From Burkholderiales bacterium (lineage in GTDB: Bacteria; Pseudomonadota; Gammaproteobacteria; Burkholderiales; Burkholderiaceae_E), in NCBI GenBank assembly GCA_029977705.1, contig JAPOKJ010000006.1:1-64000 (forward strand): 64,000 bases of DNA, in the 5' to 3' direction. Below, one piece after another: positions 25,698-51,463 of this stretch. Positions within the stretch are counted from its first letter, which is position 1. Each line of letters begins with the position of its first letter. The notes beneath the pieces were generated by a model, which was given only the letters and a program-made list of their open reading frames with translations, was not told where the DNA came from and did not search any database. The translations under genes were made by a program, and so were the position numbers.

Positions 25698-27443
25698 ATG
25701 AGCGGGTTCAAGACAGCGGCGGTCGTGGTCGCGGTGGTGGCTGCGGCGGCCGGCGGCGGTTGGTACTGGAAGCAGCAGCAGGGTGCCGCCCCCCCGGCAA
25801 CTGGCGCAGGGGTGACCCCGGGCGCAGCATCGGGCAATGCGGCACCTGCGGCAGGCAAGGCGGACGGCGCCCGCAAGGGGGGGCCTGGTGCTGATCGCAA
25901 CCGGCCGGTGCCGGCGGTCATTGATCAGGTGCGGGTTGGCGATGTGCCGGTGCTGGTCAATGCCCTGGGCACGGTTACGGCGCGGCAGCAGGCGGTGGTG
26001 CGTGCGCGGGTCGACGGGCTGCTGGAGGCGCTGACCTTCAAGGAAGGCGCAGCGATCAAGAAGGGACAGGCGCTGGCGCGACTGGACCGTCGTCCTTTCG
26101 AGGCGGCCCTGGCCTCGGTGCAGGGACAACTGGCCAAGGACCAGGCCCAGCTCGATATCGCCCAGCTGGACCTGCAGCGTTACCGCAAGCTCTTGGCCGA
26201 GGACTCGATCGCAGCCCAGCAGGTCGATGCCCAGGCCGCGCTGGTCAAGCAGTTGCAGGGCGTGATCACGGCCGACAAGGCCGCCGTGGCCACCGCCCAG
26301 CTGAACCTGTCGTTTGCCACCGTGACTGCACCGATTGCCGGACGTGCCGGTCTGCGCCAGGTCGATCCGGGCAACATGGTGCGCAGCGCCGATGCCAATG
26401 GCATCGTCGTGATCACCGAAGTGTCTCCGATCACCGTGGTGTTCTCGGTCCCCCAGGAATCGATGGGGCTGGTGATCAGCAGGTTCAAGCAGGCCGAGGA
26501 CAAGCGCGAGGTGATCCGGGTCCAGGCCCTGGACCGCGATGGCCGCACGCCCATCGAGGGCGGACGTCTGCTGGCGATCGACAACCAGACCGATCCGAGC
26601 ACCGGCTCGACGCGGCTCAAGGCGGGGTTCGGCAACAAGTCGGGCAAATTGTTTCCAGGCCAGTTTGTCAATGTGCGGGTCATCGTCGATACCTTGCCAG
26701 GTGCGCTGACGGTGCCGCAGAGCGCGATCCAGCGCGGCGCGCAAGGCACCTTCGTGTTCGTCGTCACGCCCGAGAAAACCGCCTCGGTACGCCGCGTGAC
26801 CCTGGGCAACCCGATTGGGGAGCGCATCGTGGTCAGCGAGGGCCTGAGTGAGGGCGAATCGGTGGTGATCGATGGCGCCGACAAGTTGCGCGAAGGTGCG
26901 CCGGTGACCACCGTCAGCCCGCCGCCCTCGATGCGGCGACGCGGAGGGCCCGGTGCACCGGGTCCGGCCGGGGCCGCAGGGGGGCCGCCTGCGCCTGCCG
27001 CGCCCGCTGCTCCCGCAGCTCCGGCAGGTGCCGGCGCTTCACCCCCGGGTGGGACGCCGGCCGCTGCGGCAGCCCCTGCTGCAGGCAAGGCGGGCGCTGA
27101 TGTGCCAGCCGCCCAGGCGCCAAGGCCGGGCAAGGGCGCAGACCGGGGCGCGGCGAAACCCGTGGGCGATGCTGCCGAGGAGACGAGCGGCAAGGCACGC
27201 CCGAGCGGTGGCGCAGCCCCCGAGGCAGGCACCCCGGAGCGGCCCCGCGGCCCCGCAGCGGGCGGCACCGGCAAGCGTGAATGGACGCCCGAGCAGAAGG
27301 CGGCCTTCGATGCCCTGACGCCTGAGCAAAAAGAGGCCATCCGCAACATGACGCCGGAACAACGGGCAGCCTTGCGGGCACGCCGCGCGGCGCGCGAGGC
27401 AGGTGAGGCGGGCGCAGCCGACGCCGCCGGCACCAAGCCATGA
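25698..27443 (+). CDS. mdtA: RND efflux periplasmic adaptor, MdtA-like, with repeat-bearing C-terminal tail
   Basis: 581 aa. The N-terminal membrane anchor ([21 protein letters not shown]) is followed by an MFP core at about 75-405: barrel-sandwich lipoyl halves [31 protein letters not shown] and [21 protein letters not shown], a helical hairpin between them, then beta-barrel and membrane-proximal domains. Known MdtA proteins are about 400-415 aa. Here residues about 408-528 add an Ala/Pro/Gly-rich linker and 529-561 add three 11-residue TPEQ units. The stop overlaps mdtB (ATGA). A TACAAT -10-like box is at 25656-25661. It couples the RND pump to the outer-membrane factor. Confidence 0.92.
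27282..27380 (+). repeat. Three 11-residue TPEQ repeats in MdtA tail
   Basis: Codons 529-561 of the adaptor encode three exact-period units beginning WTPEQ, LTPEQ and MTPEQ, each followed by K/R and Ala at fixed positions. The LTxxQ-like pattern recalls Spy/CpxP periplasmic chaperones; an 11-residue period suits a helical bundle or coiled coil. The segment is preceded by a 120-residue low-complexity linker. Confidence 0.85.
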
Positions 27444-30400
27444 ATTTTTCTGAGGTCTTCATCCGGCGACCGGTGGCCACCAGCCTGCTGATGCTGGCAG
27501 TGCTGATCGCTGGCCTGGTGGCCTACCGGCTGCTGCCGCAGTCCGCCTTGCCCCAGGTCGACTATCCGACGATCCAGGTGACGACGCTGTACCCGGGGGC
27601 CAGCCCCGATGTCATCACCTCGTCCATCACGGCGCCCCTGGAGCGCCAGTTCGGACAGATGCCGGGGCTGGATGCGATGTGGTCGGCCTCCAGTGGTGGT
27701 GCCTCGGTCATCACCTTGCGCTTTTCGCTCGAGCTGCGTCTGGATGTGGCCGAGCAGCAGGTCCAGGCGGCCATCAACGCGGCCGCCACCTTCCTGCCCT
27801 CCGACCTGCCCGCACCCCCGGTCTACAACAAGGTCAATCCGGCTGATGCGCCGATCCTCACGATCGCATTGAGCAGTGCCACCATGCCCCTGCCCAAGGT
27901 GCAGGACATGGCTGAGACGCGTGTCGCGCAGAAGATCTCCCAGGTCACGGGTGTGGGTCTGGTGACCCTGTCGGGCGGACAGAAGCCGGCGGTGCGGGTG
28001 CAGGTCAATCCGCGGGCCCTGGCCGCGATGGGCCTGTCGATGGAGGATGTGCGTATCGCCATCAGCAACCAGAATGTCAATCAGGCCAAGGGCAGTTTCG
28101 ATGGCAGCCTGCGGGCTTCGACCATCGACGCCAATGACCAGCTGGTCAGCGCCGCCGAGTACCGGCGGCTGGTGATCGCCTATCGCAATGGTGCGCCGAT
28201 CCGCATGGGTGATGTTGCCCGTGTGATCGATGGCGCAGAGAACGTTCGGCTGGCTGCCTGGGCCAACCAGGAGCCCGGGATCGTCCTCAATGTGCAGCGC
28301 CAGCCCGGTGCCAATGTGATCGAGACGGTGGATCGCATCAAGGAGTTGCTGCCCCAGCTGCAGGCCAACCTGCCGGCGGCTGTCACGCTCACCACCCTGA
28401 CCGATCGCACGATCACCATTCGCGCATCGGTTCGCGACGTGCAGATCGAACTGGCCATGGCGGTTGCCCTGGTGGTGATGGTGATCTTCCTGTTCCTGCG
28501 CAGTGTGCCGGCCACCCTCATCCCCAGTGTGGCGGTACCGCTGTCACTGGTGGGGACCTTTGCTGCGATGTATTTTGCCGGCTTCACCATCAACAACCTC
28601 ACCTTGATGGCCCTGACGATTGCCGCTGGCTTCGTCGTCGACGACGCCATCGTGATGATTGAAAACATTGCCCGGCATCTCGAAGAGATGTCGGGCAATG
28701 TTTCGGCGCAGGCTAACCTGGCCGCAGGCCAGGTCAAGGACGCGCAAGCGTCCGGCGACTCGATCGCGATGCGCGCCGCCATCACCGGAGCCCGCCAGAT
28801 CGGCTTCACTATCCTGTCGCTGACAGTCTCCCTGATCGCGGTGCTGATCCCGCTGCTGTTCATGCGTGAGGTGGTCGGACGCCTGTTCCGCGAATTCGCG
28901 ATCACCCTGGCCATTGCCATCCTGATCTCGGCAATTGTGTCGCTGACCCTGACGCCGATGATGTGCGCGCGCCTGCTCAAGCCGGAATCGCAACACCGGG
29001 AGCCCGGCTGGCTCAAGGCCCTGGGACGCAGCTTTGATCATCTGGTCAATGGCTATGCCCGGGCCCTGGACTGGGTTCTGGCGCGGCAAGGCCTGGTGCT
29101 GTGGGTGGCGGTTGCCACGGTGGCCCTGACGGTGGCCTTGTCGCTGGTGGTGTCCAAGGGCTTTTTTCCGGTGCAGGACACCGGTGCCATCCAGGGCATC
29201 ACCGAAGCCTCCCAGACGATTTCCTTCACCGCGATGGGTGATCGCCAGCAGGCGCTGGTGCAGGAACTGATCCAGGATCCCGCAGTGGAGAGCGTGGCCT
29301 CGCTGATCGGGGTCGACGGCAGCAACCAGACGGTCAACAGTGGCCGCCTGATGATCAATCTCAAGCCGCTCGAGTCCGGCAGGCCGCGCGCCGCGGCGCT
29401 GATTCCGCGCCTGCAGGAGCGGGTCAGCCGCATTCCCGGCATCGTGCTCTACCTGCAACCCTCGCAGGACCTGACGATCGACGACCGCGTCAGCCGCACG
29501 GCCTACCAGTTCACCCTCGACAGCTCCGATCCGGCCGCCCTGTCCGAGTGGGTGCCCCGACTGATGGAGCGGCTGCAGGCCCTGCCGCAATTGCGCGAAT
29601 TGAGTACCGACCAGCAGATCGGTGGCCTGCAGGCCTATGTGCAGATCGATCGTGATGCGGCCGCGCGACTTGGCGTGACGGTGGCAGCCATCGACAATGC
29701 CCTATACAACGCCTTCGGCCAGCGTCTGGTGTCGACCATCTTTACGCAGGCCAGCCAGTATCGGGTCGTGCTCGAAACGAGTCCGGAGTTTCGGCGAACC
29801 CCCGAGGACATTGCCCGGCTGTACGTGCCAGGCAATGTCAACGGCGTTGCGTCCCAGGTGCCGATGGCATCGGTGGCGCAAGTGGTGGAAAAGCCGGCGC
29901 AACTGGTGATCAACAAGCTCAACCAGTTCCCGGCAGCCACCGTTTATTTCAATCCGGCGCCGGGCCACTCGCTGGGTCAGGCGGTCGAGGCGATCGAGGC
30001 GGCGCAGGCTGAGATCGGTTTGCCACCGAGCATCCGCACCCAGTTCCAGGGTGCCAGCCTGGCCTTCAAGGCGGCGCTGGTGAACCAGGTGCTGCTGGTG
30101 CTGGCGGCGATCGTCACGATGTACATCGTGCTCGGAGTGCTCTACGAGAGCTACATTCATCCGGTGACGATTCTCTCGACCCTGCCATCGGCCGGTATCG
30201 GTGCGCTGCTGGCACTGATCCTCACCCGCAACGACCTGAATGTAATCGCGATCATCGGGATCGTGCTGTTGATCGGCATCGTCAAGAAGAACGCGATCAT
30301 GATGATCGATTTTGCGCTCGAGGCCGAACGGCATCGGGGCGCCACGCCGCACGAGGCCATCCGCCAGGCCTGCCTGCTGCGGCTGCGCCCGATCCTGATG

Positions 30401-30607
30401 ACCACCATGGCGGCCCTGCTCGGCGCCTTGCCCCTGATGCTGGGCGGCGGTATGGGCAGCGAGCTTCGCCAACCCCTGGGCCTGACCATGGTCGGGGGTC
30501 TGCTGGTCAGCCAGGTACTGACCCTGTTCACCACGCCAGTCATCTATCTGGCCTTTGATCGTGCCGCGCGCCGCTGGCGTGCGCGGCGTCAGGCGTCTGC
30601 CGCATGA
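27440..30607 (+). CDS. mdtB: RND multidrug efflux inner-membrane transporter, MdtB-like
   Basis: 1055 aa, twelve membrane helices and two large periplasmic loops. The HAE-RND start is [52 protein letters not shown]4 contains [13 protein letters not shown] with the proton-relay Asp pair. The segment [39 protein letters not shown] is close to E. coli MdtB as I recall it. Compared with the neighbouring MdtC, 23 extra residues (417-439) follow ARHLEE; they are encoded by a hairpin-rich insertion. It overlaps mdtA and mdtC by four bases each. In E. coli MdtB and MdtC form a mixed trimer exporting bile salts and novobiocin; that role is transferred by homology. Confidence 0.95.
28663..28756. repeat. 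Hairpin-rich in-frame insertion within mdtB
   Basis: Three consecutive inverted repeats. First is a 19-bp stem with one mismatch and a 3-base loop: left arm 28663-28681, AAACATTGCCCGGCATCTC; right arm 28685-28703. Second is an 8-bp perfect stem with a 3-base loop (28716-28734). Third is a 6-bp perfect stem with a 4-base loop (28738-28753). They span the 69 bases (about 28688-28756) that encode 23 residues absent from the aligned MdtC segment. The frame is kept. Confidence 0.85.
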
Positions 30608-33600
30608 ACATGTCCGCGCTGTTCATCCGGCGGCCGGTGGCCACCAGCCTGCTGACCCTGGCGATCATGCTGGCCGGTGTGCTCGGCTTCGTGATGCTGC
30701 CGGTCTCGCCCTTGCCCCAGGTGGAGTTTCCGACCATCTCGGTCACCGCGAACCTGCCGGGCGCCAGCCCCGAGACCATGGCCGCCACCGTGGCCACGCC
30801 GCTCGAGCGCGCCCTGGGGGCGATTTCGGGGGTGACCGAACTGACCTCCTCCAGCTCGCTCGGGGCCACCCGTGTCACCCTGCAGTTCGACCTGGGCAAG
30901 AACATCGACAGCGCAGCCCGCGAGGTACAGGCCGCGATCAATGCAGCGCGGGTGATGCTGCCCAGCAGCCTGCCCAACAATCCCACCTATCGCAAGGTCA
31001 ATCCGGCCGACTCGCCGGTGATGATCATCTCGCTGACCTCGGAGACGATGACCCGCGGCCAGATGTATGACGCCGCCTCCACCGTGCTGTCGCAGCGCAT
31101 CTCGCAACTGGAAGGCGTGGGGCAGGTGACGGTAGGCGGCGGTGCCCTGCCTGCGGTGCGGGTGGCCCTCGACCTGCCGGCGCTGACGGCCCGTGGCATC
31201 AACCTCGAGGAGGTCCGCTCGGCCATCGCGACCACCAATGTCAACCGGCCCAAGGGCTTCGTCGACGATGAGTACCGCCAGTGGCAACTGGGTGCCAATG
31301 ACCAGGCGCGCCGGGCCAGGGACTATCTGCCCCTGGTGGTGGCCTACCGGAACAATGCGCCGGTGCGGCTGTCCGATGTGGCCGCGGTGACCGACGGGGT
31401 GCAGGACTCGCGCAACATGGGCCTGACCAATGGCAAGCCGTCGGTGCTGCTGCTGGTCTATCGCCAGCCGGGGGCCAACATCCTGGAGACGGTCGAGCGC
31501 GTGCGCGCCACCTTGCCCTTGCTCAAGGCTTCGGTGCCCGCAGCCCTGGACATGGATGTGGTGCTCGAGCGCACCACCACCATCCGCGCTTCGCTGCGCG
31601 AGGTCGAGCGGGCCCTGGCGATCTCGGTGGCGCTGGTCATTCTGGTCGTCTATGCCTTCCTGCGCAGTGCCCGGGCCACCCTGATTCCTGCCATCGCCGT
31701 GCCGGTGTCGCTGCTCGGCACCTGTGCCGCCATGCACCTGCTCGGCTACAGCCTGAACAACCTGTCGCTGATGGCGCTGACCGTGGCCACCGGCTTTGTC
31801 GTCGATGATGCCATCGTGGTGCTCGAGAACACCATGCGCCACATCGAAGAGGGCATCAAGCCGATGCAGGCCGCCTTGCAGGGCGCCCGCGAGGTCGGCT
31901 TTACGGTGGTGTCGATGAGTGTCTCGCTGGTGGCGGTCTTCATCCCGATCCTGGCCATGGGAGGCATCGTCGGCCGCCTGTTCCGCGAGTTTGCGGTGAC
32001 CCTGTCGGTGGCCATCCTTGTGTCCCTTGTCATCTCGCTGACGGCCACGCCGATGATGTGCGCACACTGGTTGCGCGCGCAACCGGTCGAACGCAGGGAA
32101 AAGGGCAGGAACCTGGTGCAACGGCTGTTTGACGCGATCGGCCGTGGCTATGGCCACTCCTTGTCCTGGGCCCTGGATCACCGCAAGACCTTGCTGCTGG
32201 TGTTCTTTGCCAGCATCGCCTTCAACATCTGGTTGTACACCATCGTACCCAAGGGCTTTTTCCCGGCCCAGGACACTGGCCTGATCATGGGCGGCATCCA
32301 GGCCGACCAGGCGACTTCCTTCCAGTCGATGAGCCAGAAGGTCAGCCGCTTCGTCGAGATCGTCAAGGAGGACCCGGCTGTCGCGCATGTCACGGCCTTT
32401 ACCGGCGGCGGCTCGCGCAATTCGGGCTTCATGTTCGTCGTCCTCAAGCCCTTGAAGGAGCGCGGCGTTTCGGCCGAGGCCGTGATTGCGCGCCTGCGGC
32501 CCAAGCTTGGCAGGGTGCCCGGGGCCAACCTGTTCCTGCAGGGGGGGCAGGACCTGCGCATTGGCGGTCGTCAGAGCAATGCCGCCTACCAGTATTCGAT
32601 CCAGTCCGATGACCTGGCACTGCTGCGTCGCTGGGAGCCGGCGATCCGGGCCACCCTGTCGAACCTGAAGGAGCTGGCCGATGTCAACACCGATGCCCAG
32701 GACAAGGGCCTGCAGACCCGCCTGCAGATCGATCGCGATGCCGCCATGCGCCTGGGGGTGAACGTGCGCGCCATCGATGCCACGCTCAACGATGCCTTCG
32801 GCCAGCGCCTGGTCTCGACCATCTACGAGCCGCTCAACCAGTACCGGGTGGTGATGGAGGCGGATGCGCGTTTCCTGCAGGGGCCCGAGGCGCTCAAGGA
32901 CATTTATTTCATTGGCAATGACGGTCAGGCGATTCCGCTGCTTTCCTTTGCCCAGGTGGTTCCCGGCAATGCCGCACTGTCGGTCAATCACCAGGGCCAG
33001 TTTGCTGCCAGCACGATTTCCTTCAACCTGGCCGAAGGCATGTCGCTGGGCCAGGCCACGATCGCGATCCGCGAGGCCCTGGACAAGATCGGTGTGCCCA
33101 GCGCGATTGCCGGCTCGTTTGCAGGCGGTGCCAAGGTCTTCCAGTCATCGCTGGCCAGCCAGCCCCTGCTGATCCTGACGGCCCTGGTGGCGATCTACCT
33201 GGTGCTGGGCATGCTGTACGAGAGCCTGATCCACCCGCTGACGATCCTCTCGACGCTGCCCTCGGCCGGCATCGGTGCCTTGCTGGCCCTGATGCTGTTC
33301 GACATGGAGTTCAACATCATCGCCTTCATCGGTGTGATCCTGCTGATCGGCATCGTCAAGAAGAACGCCATCATGATGATCGATGTGGCCATTGCCTCCG
33401 AGCGGCGCGGCGAGAGCGACCCCAGGCGGGCCATTCACGAGGCCTGCCTGCTGCGCTTGCGTCCCATCCTGATGACCACCCTGGCGGCGCTGCTCGGTGC
33501 GCTGCCGCTGGCCATCGTGACCGGTGATGGCGGTGAGTTGCGCCAGCCCCTGGGCGTGTCGATTGTGGGCGGCCTGCTGGTCAGCCAGTTGCTTACGCTC

Positions 33601-49951: not shown

Positions 49952-51463
49952 TTGACCACTTTTCAAGATTTCGGCCTCAGTGACACGATCCTGAGGGCCA
50001 TCACCGAGATGGGCTACCAGACGCCCACTCCGATCCAGGCCGAGGCCATTCCTGTCGTCCTCCAGGGGCGCGATGTCATGGGTGCTGCCCAGACCGGCAC
50101 CGGCAAGACCGCTGGCTTCGGTCTGCCGCTGCTGCAAAGGCTGCTGCCCCACGCCAACACCAGCACCTCGCCAGCCCGGCATCCGGTACGTTCCCTGATC
50201 CTGGCGCCGACCCGCGAACTGGCCGACCAGATCTTCGCCAACCTGCGCGATTACGCCAAGCACACGCCGCTGCGCTGCGCCGTGGTCTTTGGCGGTGTCG
50301 ACATGAAGCCGCAACTGCTGGCGCTGCGCAATGGCTGCGAAGTGCTGGTGGCCACGCCGGGACGCCTGCTCGATCACATGGAGCAAAAGTCGGTCAGTCT
50401 GGCCCAGGTGGAAGTGCTGGTGCTCGATGAAGCCGACCGCATGCTGGACATGGGCTTCCTGCCCGACCTCCAGCGCATCGTGCGCGCCTTGCCCAAGCAG
50501 CGCCAGAGCCTGCTGTTTTCGGCAACCTTCTCCAACGAGATCCGGCGCCTGGCGGGTACCTTCCTGACCGACCCGATCACGATCGAGGTCGCGCGCCGCA
50601 ATGCCACCGCCGAAAATGTCACCCAGAAGGTGTACAAGGTGGCCTCCACCGAGGCCAAGCGCAATGCGGTGGCCCACCTGATCCAGTTGCATGCGCTCAG
50701 CCAGGTGATCGTGTTCTCGAACACCAAGATCGGCTGCGGTCGCCTGGCCCGTCACCTGCAAAAGCTTGGCCTGAATGCCGATGCCATCCATGGCGACAAG
50801 TCGCAGCAGGACCGGCTGGTCACGCTCGACAACTTCAAGAACGGCAAGACCAGCGTGCTGGTGGCCACCGATGTGGCGGCCCGGGGTCTGGACATCGCCG
50901 AGCTGCCGGCGGTCATCAACTACGATTTGCCGTACTCGCCGGAAGACTATGTGCACCGCATCGGCCGTACCGGTCGCGCCGGCGCCAGTGGCCTGGCCTT
51001 GTCGATCATGTCCTCCGAGGACGGTCGCCTGCTGGCCGATATCGAGAAGCTGACCAAGAGCAAGCTCGATGTCGAGGCCCTCGATATCGATGCCCGCGAA
51101 GGCGGTCGCAGCGATGAGCGGGGCCCGCGCGAGGCGCGCATGCCGCGCGAGGAGCGGGGCTTTCGCGAGGAGCGCGGCAGCCGTGAGGCGTCCGGCAGCC
51201 AAGAGGAACGTCCGCCGCGCGAGGACCGGGCCGTGCGCGAGTTGCGCTCGCGTACCCGCGAACCGCGCCGTGCGCCGGCCAGCATGCCCAGCGTCACCGG
51301 ACAATCGAACGATCCCTTCTTCTACAAGCCCTACGACGCCGACGCACAGCCAGCGGCCGAGCCAACGCCCGCACCGGTCGAAGCCGCCGTGCAGGCGCGG
51401 CCGATCACCGGGCTGCGCCGACCCGCTGCACCGGTCGCCGCCTTGCTCGGCGGCAAGCGCTGA
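49952..51463 (+). CDS. rhlE: DEAD-box RNA helicase, RhlE type
   Basis: 503 aa. Q motif FQDFGLSDTILRAITEMGYQTPTPIQ, Walker A AQTGTGKT, PTRELA, VLDEADRMLDMGF, SATF, and C-terminal ATDVAARGLDI and HRIGRTGRAG. After about residue 385 there is a charged Arg/Glu-rich tail (REERG, REASG, PPRED repeats) typical of RNA-binding tails of this family. The start is a TTG with no clear ribosome-binding site, placed by alignment to the family N-terminus. It unwinds RNA in ribosome assembly or decay. Confidence 0.92.
   Translation: MTTFQDFGLSDTILRAITEMGYQTPTPIQAEAIPVVLQGRDVMGAAQTGTGKTAGFGLPLLQRLLPHANTSTSPARHPVRSLILAPTRELADQIFANLRDYAKHTPLRCAVVFGGVDMKPQLLALRNGCEVLVATPGRLLDHMEQKSVSLAQVEVLVLDEADRMLDMGFLPDLQRIVRALPKQRQSLLFSATFSNEIRRLAGTFLTDPITIEVARRNATAENVTQKVYKVASTEAKRNAVAHLIQLHALSQVIVFSNTKIGCGRLARHLQKLGLNADAIHGDKSQQDRLVTLDNFKNGKTSVLVATDVAARGLDIAELPAVINYDLPYSPEDYVHRIGRTGRAGASGLALSIMSSEDGRLLADIEKLTKSKLDVEALDIDAREGGRSDERGPREARMPREERGFREERGSREASGSQEERPPREDRAVRELRSRTREPRRAPASMPSVTGQSNDPFFYKPYDADAQPAAEPTPAPVEAAVQARPITGLRRPAAPVAALLGGKR

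Follow-up and report, generated by a model that had tools for sequence, protein, structure and literature searches.

The window, by which is meant the whole 64,000-nucleotide stretch of Burkholderiales DNA analysed here, contains an RND operon, and its gene at 27440-30607 belongs to the MdtB/MuxB type. Against the NCBIfam model NF007798 (MdtB/MuxB) this gene scored 1572 bits, slightly below the cut-off of 1584, and it matched E. coli MdtB (PDB 9lyq) with an E-value of 0. It carries an insertion composed of hairpins, the parts of which are given here with the labels used throughout:

27440..30607, + strand: mdtB-type RND permease gene of 1055 aa, which holds the insertion (open reading frame, NCBIfam, PDB)
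28661..28665, + strand: putative target site G-A/A-A-A, cut after the first A, codons E-N (from the letters; consensus S-A/M-A-A)
28663..28681, + strand: T, the host left arm, coding for (E)NIARHL and conserved in relatives (arm pairing, alignment)
28682..28684, + strand: s, the loop GAA (arm pairing)
28685..28703, + strand: T', inverted copy of T with 18 of 19 pairs (arm pairing, score 16)
28704 to about 28756, + strand: predicted copy of element E, 3'-truncated (covariance model R1)
28716..28734, + strand: hairpin A of E, an 8-bp stem with loop GCA that corresponds to helix 3 in the family structure (fold)
28738..28753, + strand: hairpin B of E, a 6-bp stem with loop GCAA that corresponds to helix 4 in the family structure (fold)

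The initial annotation had reported an in-frame gain of 23 residues over the neighbouring MdtC, and this is borne out by alignment with MdtC and with the relatives that cover the site. A protein query against 61 genomes returned loci from 30 of them (the window's own included), and none of the 43 other rows spanning the site has the extra residues. E. coli MdtB (PDB 9lyq) lacks the insertion as well; there the gap falls after ENISRYIEKGEK, a position that we take, from the topology of AcrB, to be the loop after TM4. A different and unrelated insertion of seven residues, with no recognised E, occurs in the same pump loop of two mdtB loci of the Derxia group (L005 and L006), of which L005 corresponds to a Derxia lacustris contig over 6195 identical bases.

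The three consecutive hairpins described initially are all present, both in the letters as read and in the RNA fold. The long hairpin has arms of 19 nt (28663-28681 and 28685-28703) that are 95% complementary, with one mismatch, around the loop GAA; hairpin 2 pairs 28716-28723 with 28727-28734, and hairpin 3 pairs 28738-28743 with 28748-28753. The predicted fold of 28655-28770 has an energy of -66.2 kcal/mol against -38.8 kcal/mol for shuffled sequence (z = -8.9), and none of 200 shuffles was equally stable. A hairpin scan of the 64 kb with loops of 3-10 nt gave the long hairpin a score of 16 and no other hairpin a score of 11 or more, and simulated 64-kb sequences (20, order-2 Markov) reached 13 at most, which upholds the earlier view that so long a stem is beyond chance. 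The T/T' pairing likewise scored 16 against a control maximum of 9. Within T', the 16 nt 3' of GAG are new sequence. The E portion is read in frame as (V) followed by 18 residues and is without its last ~8 nt (consensus CGAAGCCA); the GGC at 28754-28756 may belong to either the element or the host.

Hairpins 2 and 3 of mdtB are, judged by sequence and predicted fold, a 3'-truncated copy of a structured element of ~62 nt, here called E. When 74 genomes of the family were searched, 28700-28756 alone gave multi-copy matches, some of them in tandem with a spacing of ~96 bp. The sequences share the layout TTKCGGCGMAGGCTRAC..hairpin..GTYAAG..hairpin..CGGCCGAAGCCAMAA. A covariance model (R1) was built from 16 copies of E with the window copy left out, and at E-values up to 0.01 it matched 78 places in 26 of the 74 family genomes, representing 9 of 16 genera, with 1-6 copies per genome. 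Across the order, matches at 1e-3 or below were present in 114 of the 399 genomes sampled and in 59 of the 159 genera, with up to at least 12 copies per genome when the best 12 candidates of each genome were scored. In a class-wide sample, whose share of Burkholderiales is only partly listed, 2 of 369 genomes matched at 1e-4 or below, and both belong to the Burkholderiales. Within the window R1 matched 28701-28784 (E-value 2.3e-6), a weak match of 33.5 bits against up to 97 elsewhere. A second region of the window, 51054-51117, matched at 17.4 bits (E-value 0.036), probably by chance. The window's own genome (G000) has three R1 matches at 1e-3 or below, among which the window copy has an E-value of 1.6e-4; searched for other copies of the hairpins, this genome yielded two further, full copies of E:

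G000:C143:8563-8626: full E copy behind a LivH-like permease gene (L149)
G000:C46:37444-37508: full E copy behind glmS (L232)

The structure of E was assessed over 122 matches comprising 108 distinct copies. In the distinct copies 94.4% of cells were paired and 16 of 21 pairs had changes on both sides, with 369 cells changed on both sides, compared with 127 for shuffled alignments and 30-52 for slid controls; these covariation figures lean towards structure because the alignment was fitted to the model. For helix 3, which is hairpin A, 94.9% of cells were paired and 7 of 10 pairs had changes on both sides. Searches of Rfam 15 with 19 loci (E-values up to 1) and with 27000-31000 of the window (up to 5) gave only scores far below the gathering scores. 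No description of E was found among open-licence papers, which were also searched with six short E strings, and plasmid and phage collections had no match to the E query at 0.01 or below. Plasmid matches to the insert with its flanks covered only the RND motif before the insertion and not E. Among viral contigs one true E was found (L282), behind the end of a sigma-70 gene named by eye; a further viral-contig match (L284) was set aside as chance.

Many copies of E have a further feature in common, namely that the 10-20 nt just 5' of the element are an inverted copy of the host sequence upstream. In the T/T' test this pairing exceeded all 60 same-locus controls at 74 of 100 places. The 26 failures comprised 10 later tandem units, 8 that tied or missed by one, and 8 others. 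In a second set, made up of places gathered with a different aim, 24 of 39 outscored all their controls and the other 15 did not. Over both sets the T-T'-E layout was thus found at 98 of the 139 places tested in other loci and genomes. Places too near a contig end had been excluded beforehand (4 of 104 in the first set and 1 of 40 in the second). The target consensus, taken from 66 first copies with a clear arm, is S-A/M-A-A, cut after the first A. The first three bases of T are partly fixed by anchoring; positions -1 and -2 are free of it, and there the base was A in 66 of 66 (-1) and G in 57 or C in 9 (-2). The 24 passing places of the second set, read from the list, gave A in all 24 at -1, and G in 21, C in 2 and T in 1 at -2. 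By eye, the target usually encodes an acidic residue and then N or K. T' was closer to the upstream T than to the downstream copy of T in 60 of 66 rows, equally close in 6 and the reverse in none, a count that is biased because a good upstream fit was what the rows had been selected for.

The right arm is thus the reverse complement of older, adjacent sequence. The initial annotation had offered two origins for the insertion, a template switch copying the left arm back or the insertion of a small palindromic element. Each was partly right, and the two apply together: copy-back, because the left arm is conserved host sequence (ENIARHLEE) and the right arm its inverted copy, and insertion of a palindromic element, because E occurs across the order, often with an inverted target copy.

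Most copies of E lie at the ends of housekeeping genes such as proB, glmS, metK and ftsW, and also dnaB. In 49 of the 66 rows T falls within the final 16-76 nt of a frame read in sense whose protein end can be recognised, and in 8 more the site is a nuoD start in antisense reading. For any one gene, T stands at a nearly fixed distance from the stop codon:

proB: 19 in 15 rows
glmS: 40 in 7 rows (one more read in the wrong frame)
metK: 46 in 4 rows
ftsW: 31 in 6 rows and 34 in 1
smpB: 73-76 in 3 rows

Hosts named by Pfam/NCBIfam, from one representative each, are proB, glmS, a LivH-like permease, a member of the PilT family, FtsW, DnaJ, MetK, DnaB, SmpB, ribonucleotide reductase and ornithine carbamoyltransferase. 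One site is a tRNA-Leu (ARAGORN); for the sigma-70 and rfbB-like sites the names come from inspection by eye. Behind proB, two loci (L157, 1415-1850; L150, 1370-1700) carry tandem arrays with as many as five E units, with units of 94-97 bp, an incomplete last unit, and first-unit arms that are near-perfect with the proB end. In nine hand-picked sequences, out of at least 17 such sites and with two left out for duplicate arms, the proB T/T' arms were 99.3% paired and had 8 double-change cells against 1.9 in shuffles.

A direct copy of the gene end frequently follows E on its 3' side. In G107 the glmS end (KPRNLAKSVTVE-stop) and in G314 the metK end are copied in this way, each with six differences that all fall in third codon positions. 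Four pairs of T and direct copy have synonymous differences only (G107, G314, G338 and the first copy of G036), the pair in G384 is identical, and the direct copies of the proB and ftsW ends in one genus are decayed. Pooled over 20 pairs, mismatches by codon position numbered 33/20/58, with at least 3 of these pairs in spurious reading frames, so that the individual cases above carry the argument.

E occurs at unrelated loci, and its orthologous sites are found both empty and filled. At nuoD of one genus, 6 sites were filled and 10 empty in the 16 genomes that had a match (18 searched). In one of these (G095) both nuoD copies share the codon TCT, found in no other genome there, and therefore the duplication was probably made in place. 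The functional nuoD copy of another genome (G096) has an AT-rich look and is possibly of foreign origin. By eye, E in two loci (L267 and L269) lies upstream of nuoD inside a short frame that opens with the old nuoD start and ends by overlapping the real start codon of nuoD, an arrangement like that of translational coupling.

Copies also occur inside genes. When 144 places were checked for spanning frames, three lay inside genes that continue on both sides, namely the window and genomes G115 and G119. The other spanning frames ran from stop to stop and were by eye spurious or upstream extensions. Among 80 named MdtB-like loci only that of Acidovorax delafieldii 2AN (L058) matched R1 at 0.1 or below, with E at the same codon as in the window. 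The two genes have an identical 20-nt T region, and their best protein segment is 65% identical; the T' of the Acidovorax copy matches its own host gene. Hairpin A reads ACCTGGCC/GGCCAGGT in the window and CATGGGGCC/GGCTCCGTG in Acidovorax, where many bases are changed on both arms and pairing is still full with G-U. An old protein feature, according to the initial annotation, would appear as the same residues in distant MdtB proteins with unrelated codons and without hairpins; no such protein was encountered in these comparisons, and L058 has the hairpins. A DNA search of the 399 order genomes with the Acidovorax site, which considered the best two candidates per genome and missed G119, returned only the window's genome.

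In G119 an RND permease (L321, ~1070-1420) has three tandem copies of E after VVLENIHRHQ, an in-frame repeat of three units of ~31 residues at the same codons as in mdtB. Its T/T' arms (AAATATTCATCGAC/GTCGATGAATATTT) match its own host gene, and therefore insertion at the RND codon pair happened more than once. The one other genome of the G119 family examined had no such copy. In G115 the element lies within mpl (NCBIfam mpl, 708.6 bits), with arms AAACATCCTGGG/CCCAGGATGTTT that are perfect over 12 bp and tie with the best locus control (12 vs 12). In all four genes (window, Acidovorax, G119 and G115) E is read in the same frame, as SAQAN..VK..QA.G.SQN, whereby the residues S, A, A, V, Q, G and S are invariant.

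The mdtB insertion is very probably an in-frame, 3'-truncated copy of the Burkholderiales palindromic element E together with its usual target-copy scar, and E itself is in our view mainly a mobile, selfish repeat. Copies are usually laid out as gene ... S-A/T - s - T' - E - T(copy) - s, with T beginning M-A-A; mdtB lacks both the second T and the terminus of E, and has 23 extra residues in frame. Insertion would start at the target S-A/M-A-A with a cut between A and MAA. A strand ending ...T'-TTK, the complement of the cut target, would be extended along an E template to give T'-E, after which the terminal stem of E (TTKCGGC/GCCAMAA) could fold back and the MAA end resume synthesis at T. The product would be T-s-T'-E-T-s without loss of the gene end; with the copied terminus present twice, the gene therefore stays intact. 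Such a process would amount to template switching aided by, or catalysed for, a specific element, and for mdtB we assume a later deletion of the E terminus together with the second T. Within genes only the copies that keep the frame would survive. Against one-step local copying stand the several pairs of T and direct copy that differ at synonymous sites only, which movement of gene ends between species by homologous recombination would explain. More tentatively, and with the balance leaning against it, E may represent a new class of target-copying mobile element that leaves the inverted copy T' beside each insertion at S-A/M-A-A and regenerates the gene end after it. In that case the unit [T-s-T'-E] might find its way to the corresponding gene of further species, T' serving as a guide of 10-20 nt, and this would explain the repeated hits on the same few housekeeping genes and on the same codons of different RND pumps.

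Among the alternatives, arrival of E within a foreign mdtB segment by homologous recombination, in place of a new insertion, is a serious possibility that we nevertheless rate below even. It would fit the Acidovorax delafieldii gene, which shares with the window both the codon position of E and the 20-nt T despite 65% protein identity, and the orthologue-like, synonymous-only differences between T and direct copy at some other genes. However, the E sequences of the window and Acidovorax clearly differ in hairpin A, and the host-specific T of the RND copy in G119 means that new insertions at this codon do happen. It is unlikely that E is instead a functional cis-acting RNA at gene ends (a 3'-UTR stabiliser, terminator or attenuator) whose T/T' pairing is kept by selection. 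The strong covariation in E and in the nine hand-picked proB T/T' sequences, and the recurrence of the same conserved genes in several families, would suit such a role. Copies inside coding genes (the window, L058, L242 and L321), antisense copies at the nuoD start, and the presence of E at only 6 of 16 nuoD genes of one genus would not, and the direct gene-end copies after E resemble insertion scars. Furthermore, template-switch repair of hairpin arms as described in PMC8794818 can also yield covariation.

Local template switching (quasipalindrome mutation) that made all three hairpins with no element involved is very improbable, even though a fold-back copy would yield just such a 19-bp stem and the mechanism, according to PMC8794818, has been thoroughly studied in microbes and both creates and corrects hairpins. 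Hairpins 2 and 3 and their linkers fit a model made from other copies, and E is present in 59 of the 159 sampled genera of the order; as the source of T' alone, local template switching is likely. Least credible of all is a fold-back chimera from assembly or amplification. Inverted copies are a known artefact, and the genome is a draft of 143 contigs; yet the frame is open across the 23-codon insertion, the same insertion occurs in a separately sequenced Acidovorax contig, and 98 of 139 tested places elsewhere have the T-T'-E layout.

If the reading of E as a target-copying palindromic element is true, it describes a widespread bacterial repeat so far unnamed, within the limited searches made, at the ends of proB, glmS, metK, dnaB, ftsW and nuoD. 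In many copies the insertion event is preserved as an inverted copy of the target, so that compound template-switch insertion, a rare process, becomes directly testable. The reading would also imply repeated hits at one codon pair of RND efflux pumps, and a route from hairpin DNA to protein sequence like that of the Rickettsia palindromic elements (RPE) outside Rickettsia.

The single-stranded DNA transposons of the IS200/IS605 group have structured ends, and the layout of E would suit a short guide (here TTK) that is complementary to the target as well as to the element end. Their insertions are not known to copy the target in inverted form, and the window's genome has no match to the Y1 transposase family PF01797. 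An IS200-type Y1 transposase was rejected as the mover, since PF01797 occurred in 7 of 26 genomes with E and 13 of 48 without and is thus not associated with it. The core sites of integron attC read RYYYAAC ... GTTRRRY; compared by eye with this motif, E reads GGCTRAC...GTYAAG rather than the consensus. Like MITEs and REP/BIME repeats, E is a small, non-coding palindromic repeat with tandem units and no gene of its own. Unlike REP/RAYT systems, it is without Y1/RAYT association and its flank is an inverted host copy. REP/BIME repeats with RAYT are described as exceeding 100 copies per genome (PMC2817692), whereas E has 1-6 copies per family genome and up to at least 12 in the order sample. In quasipalindrome mutations as described in PMC8794818, an inverted copy of adjacent sequence produces a near-perfect stem; E differs from these plain cases in that the switch is linked with one specific element and with a fixed motif at the target.

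The nearest kind to E is the RPE, which is described as lying in frame in unrelated protein genes with a recurrent peptide frame (PMC10969869). E shares with this description the presence of short palindromic DNA in frame within protein genes and the use of the same peptide frame, here in four genes. Length and host group set the two apart, with ~62 nt against ~150 bp and Burkholderiales as hosts of E. In addition, E lies mostly at gene ends, at the target S-A/M-A-A, and is usually accompanied by an inverted and often also a direct copy of that target, and it is this target-copying flank that distinguishes E from the RPE.
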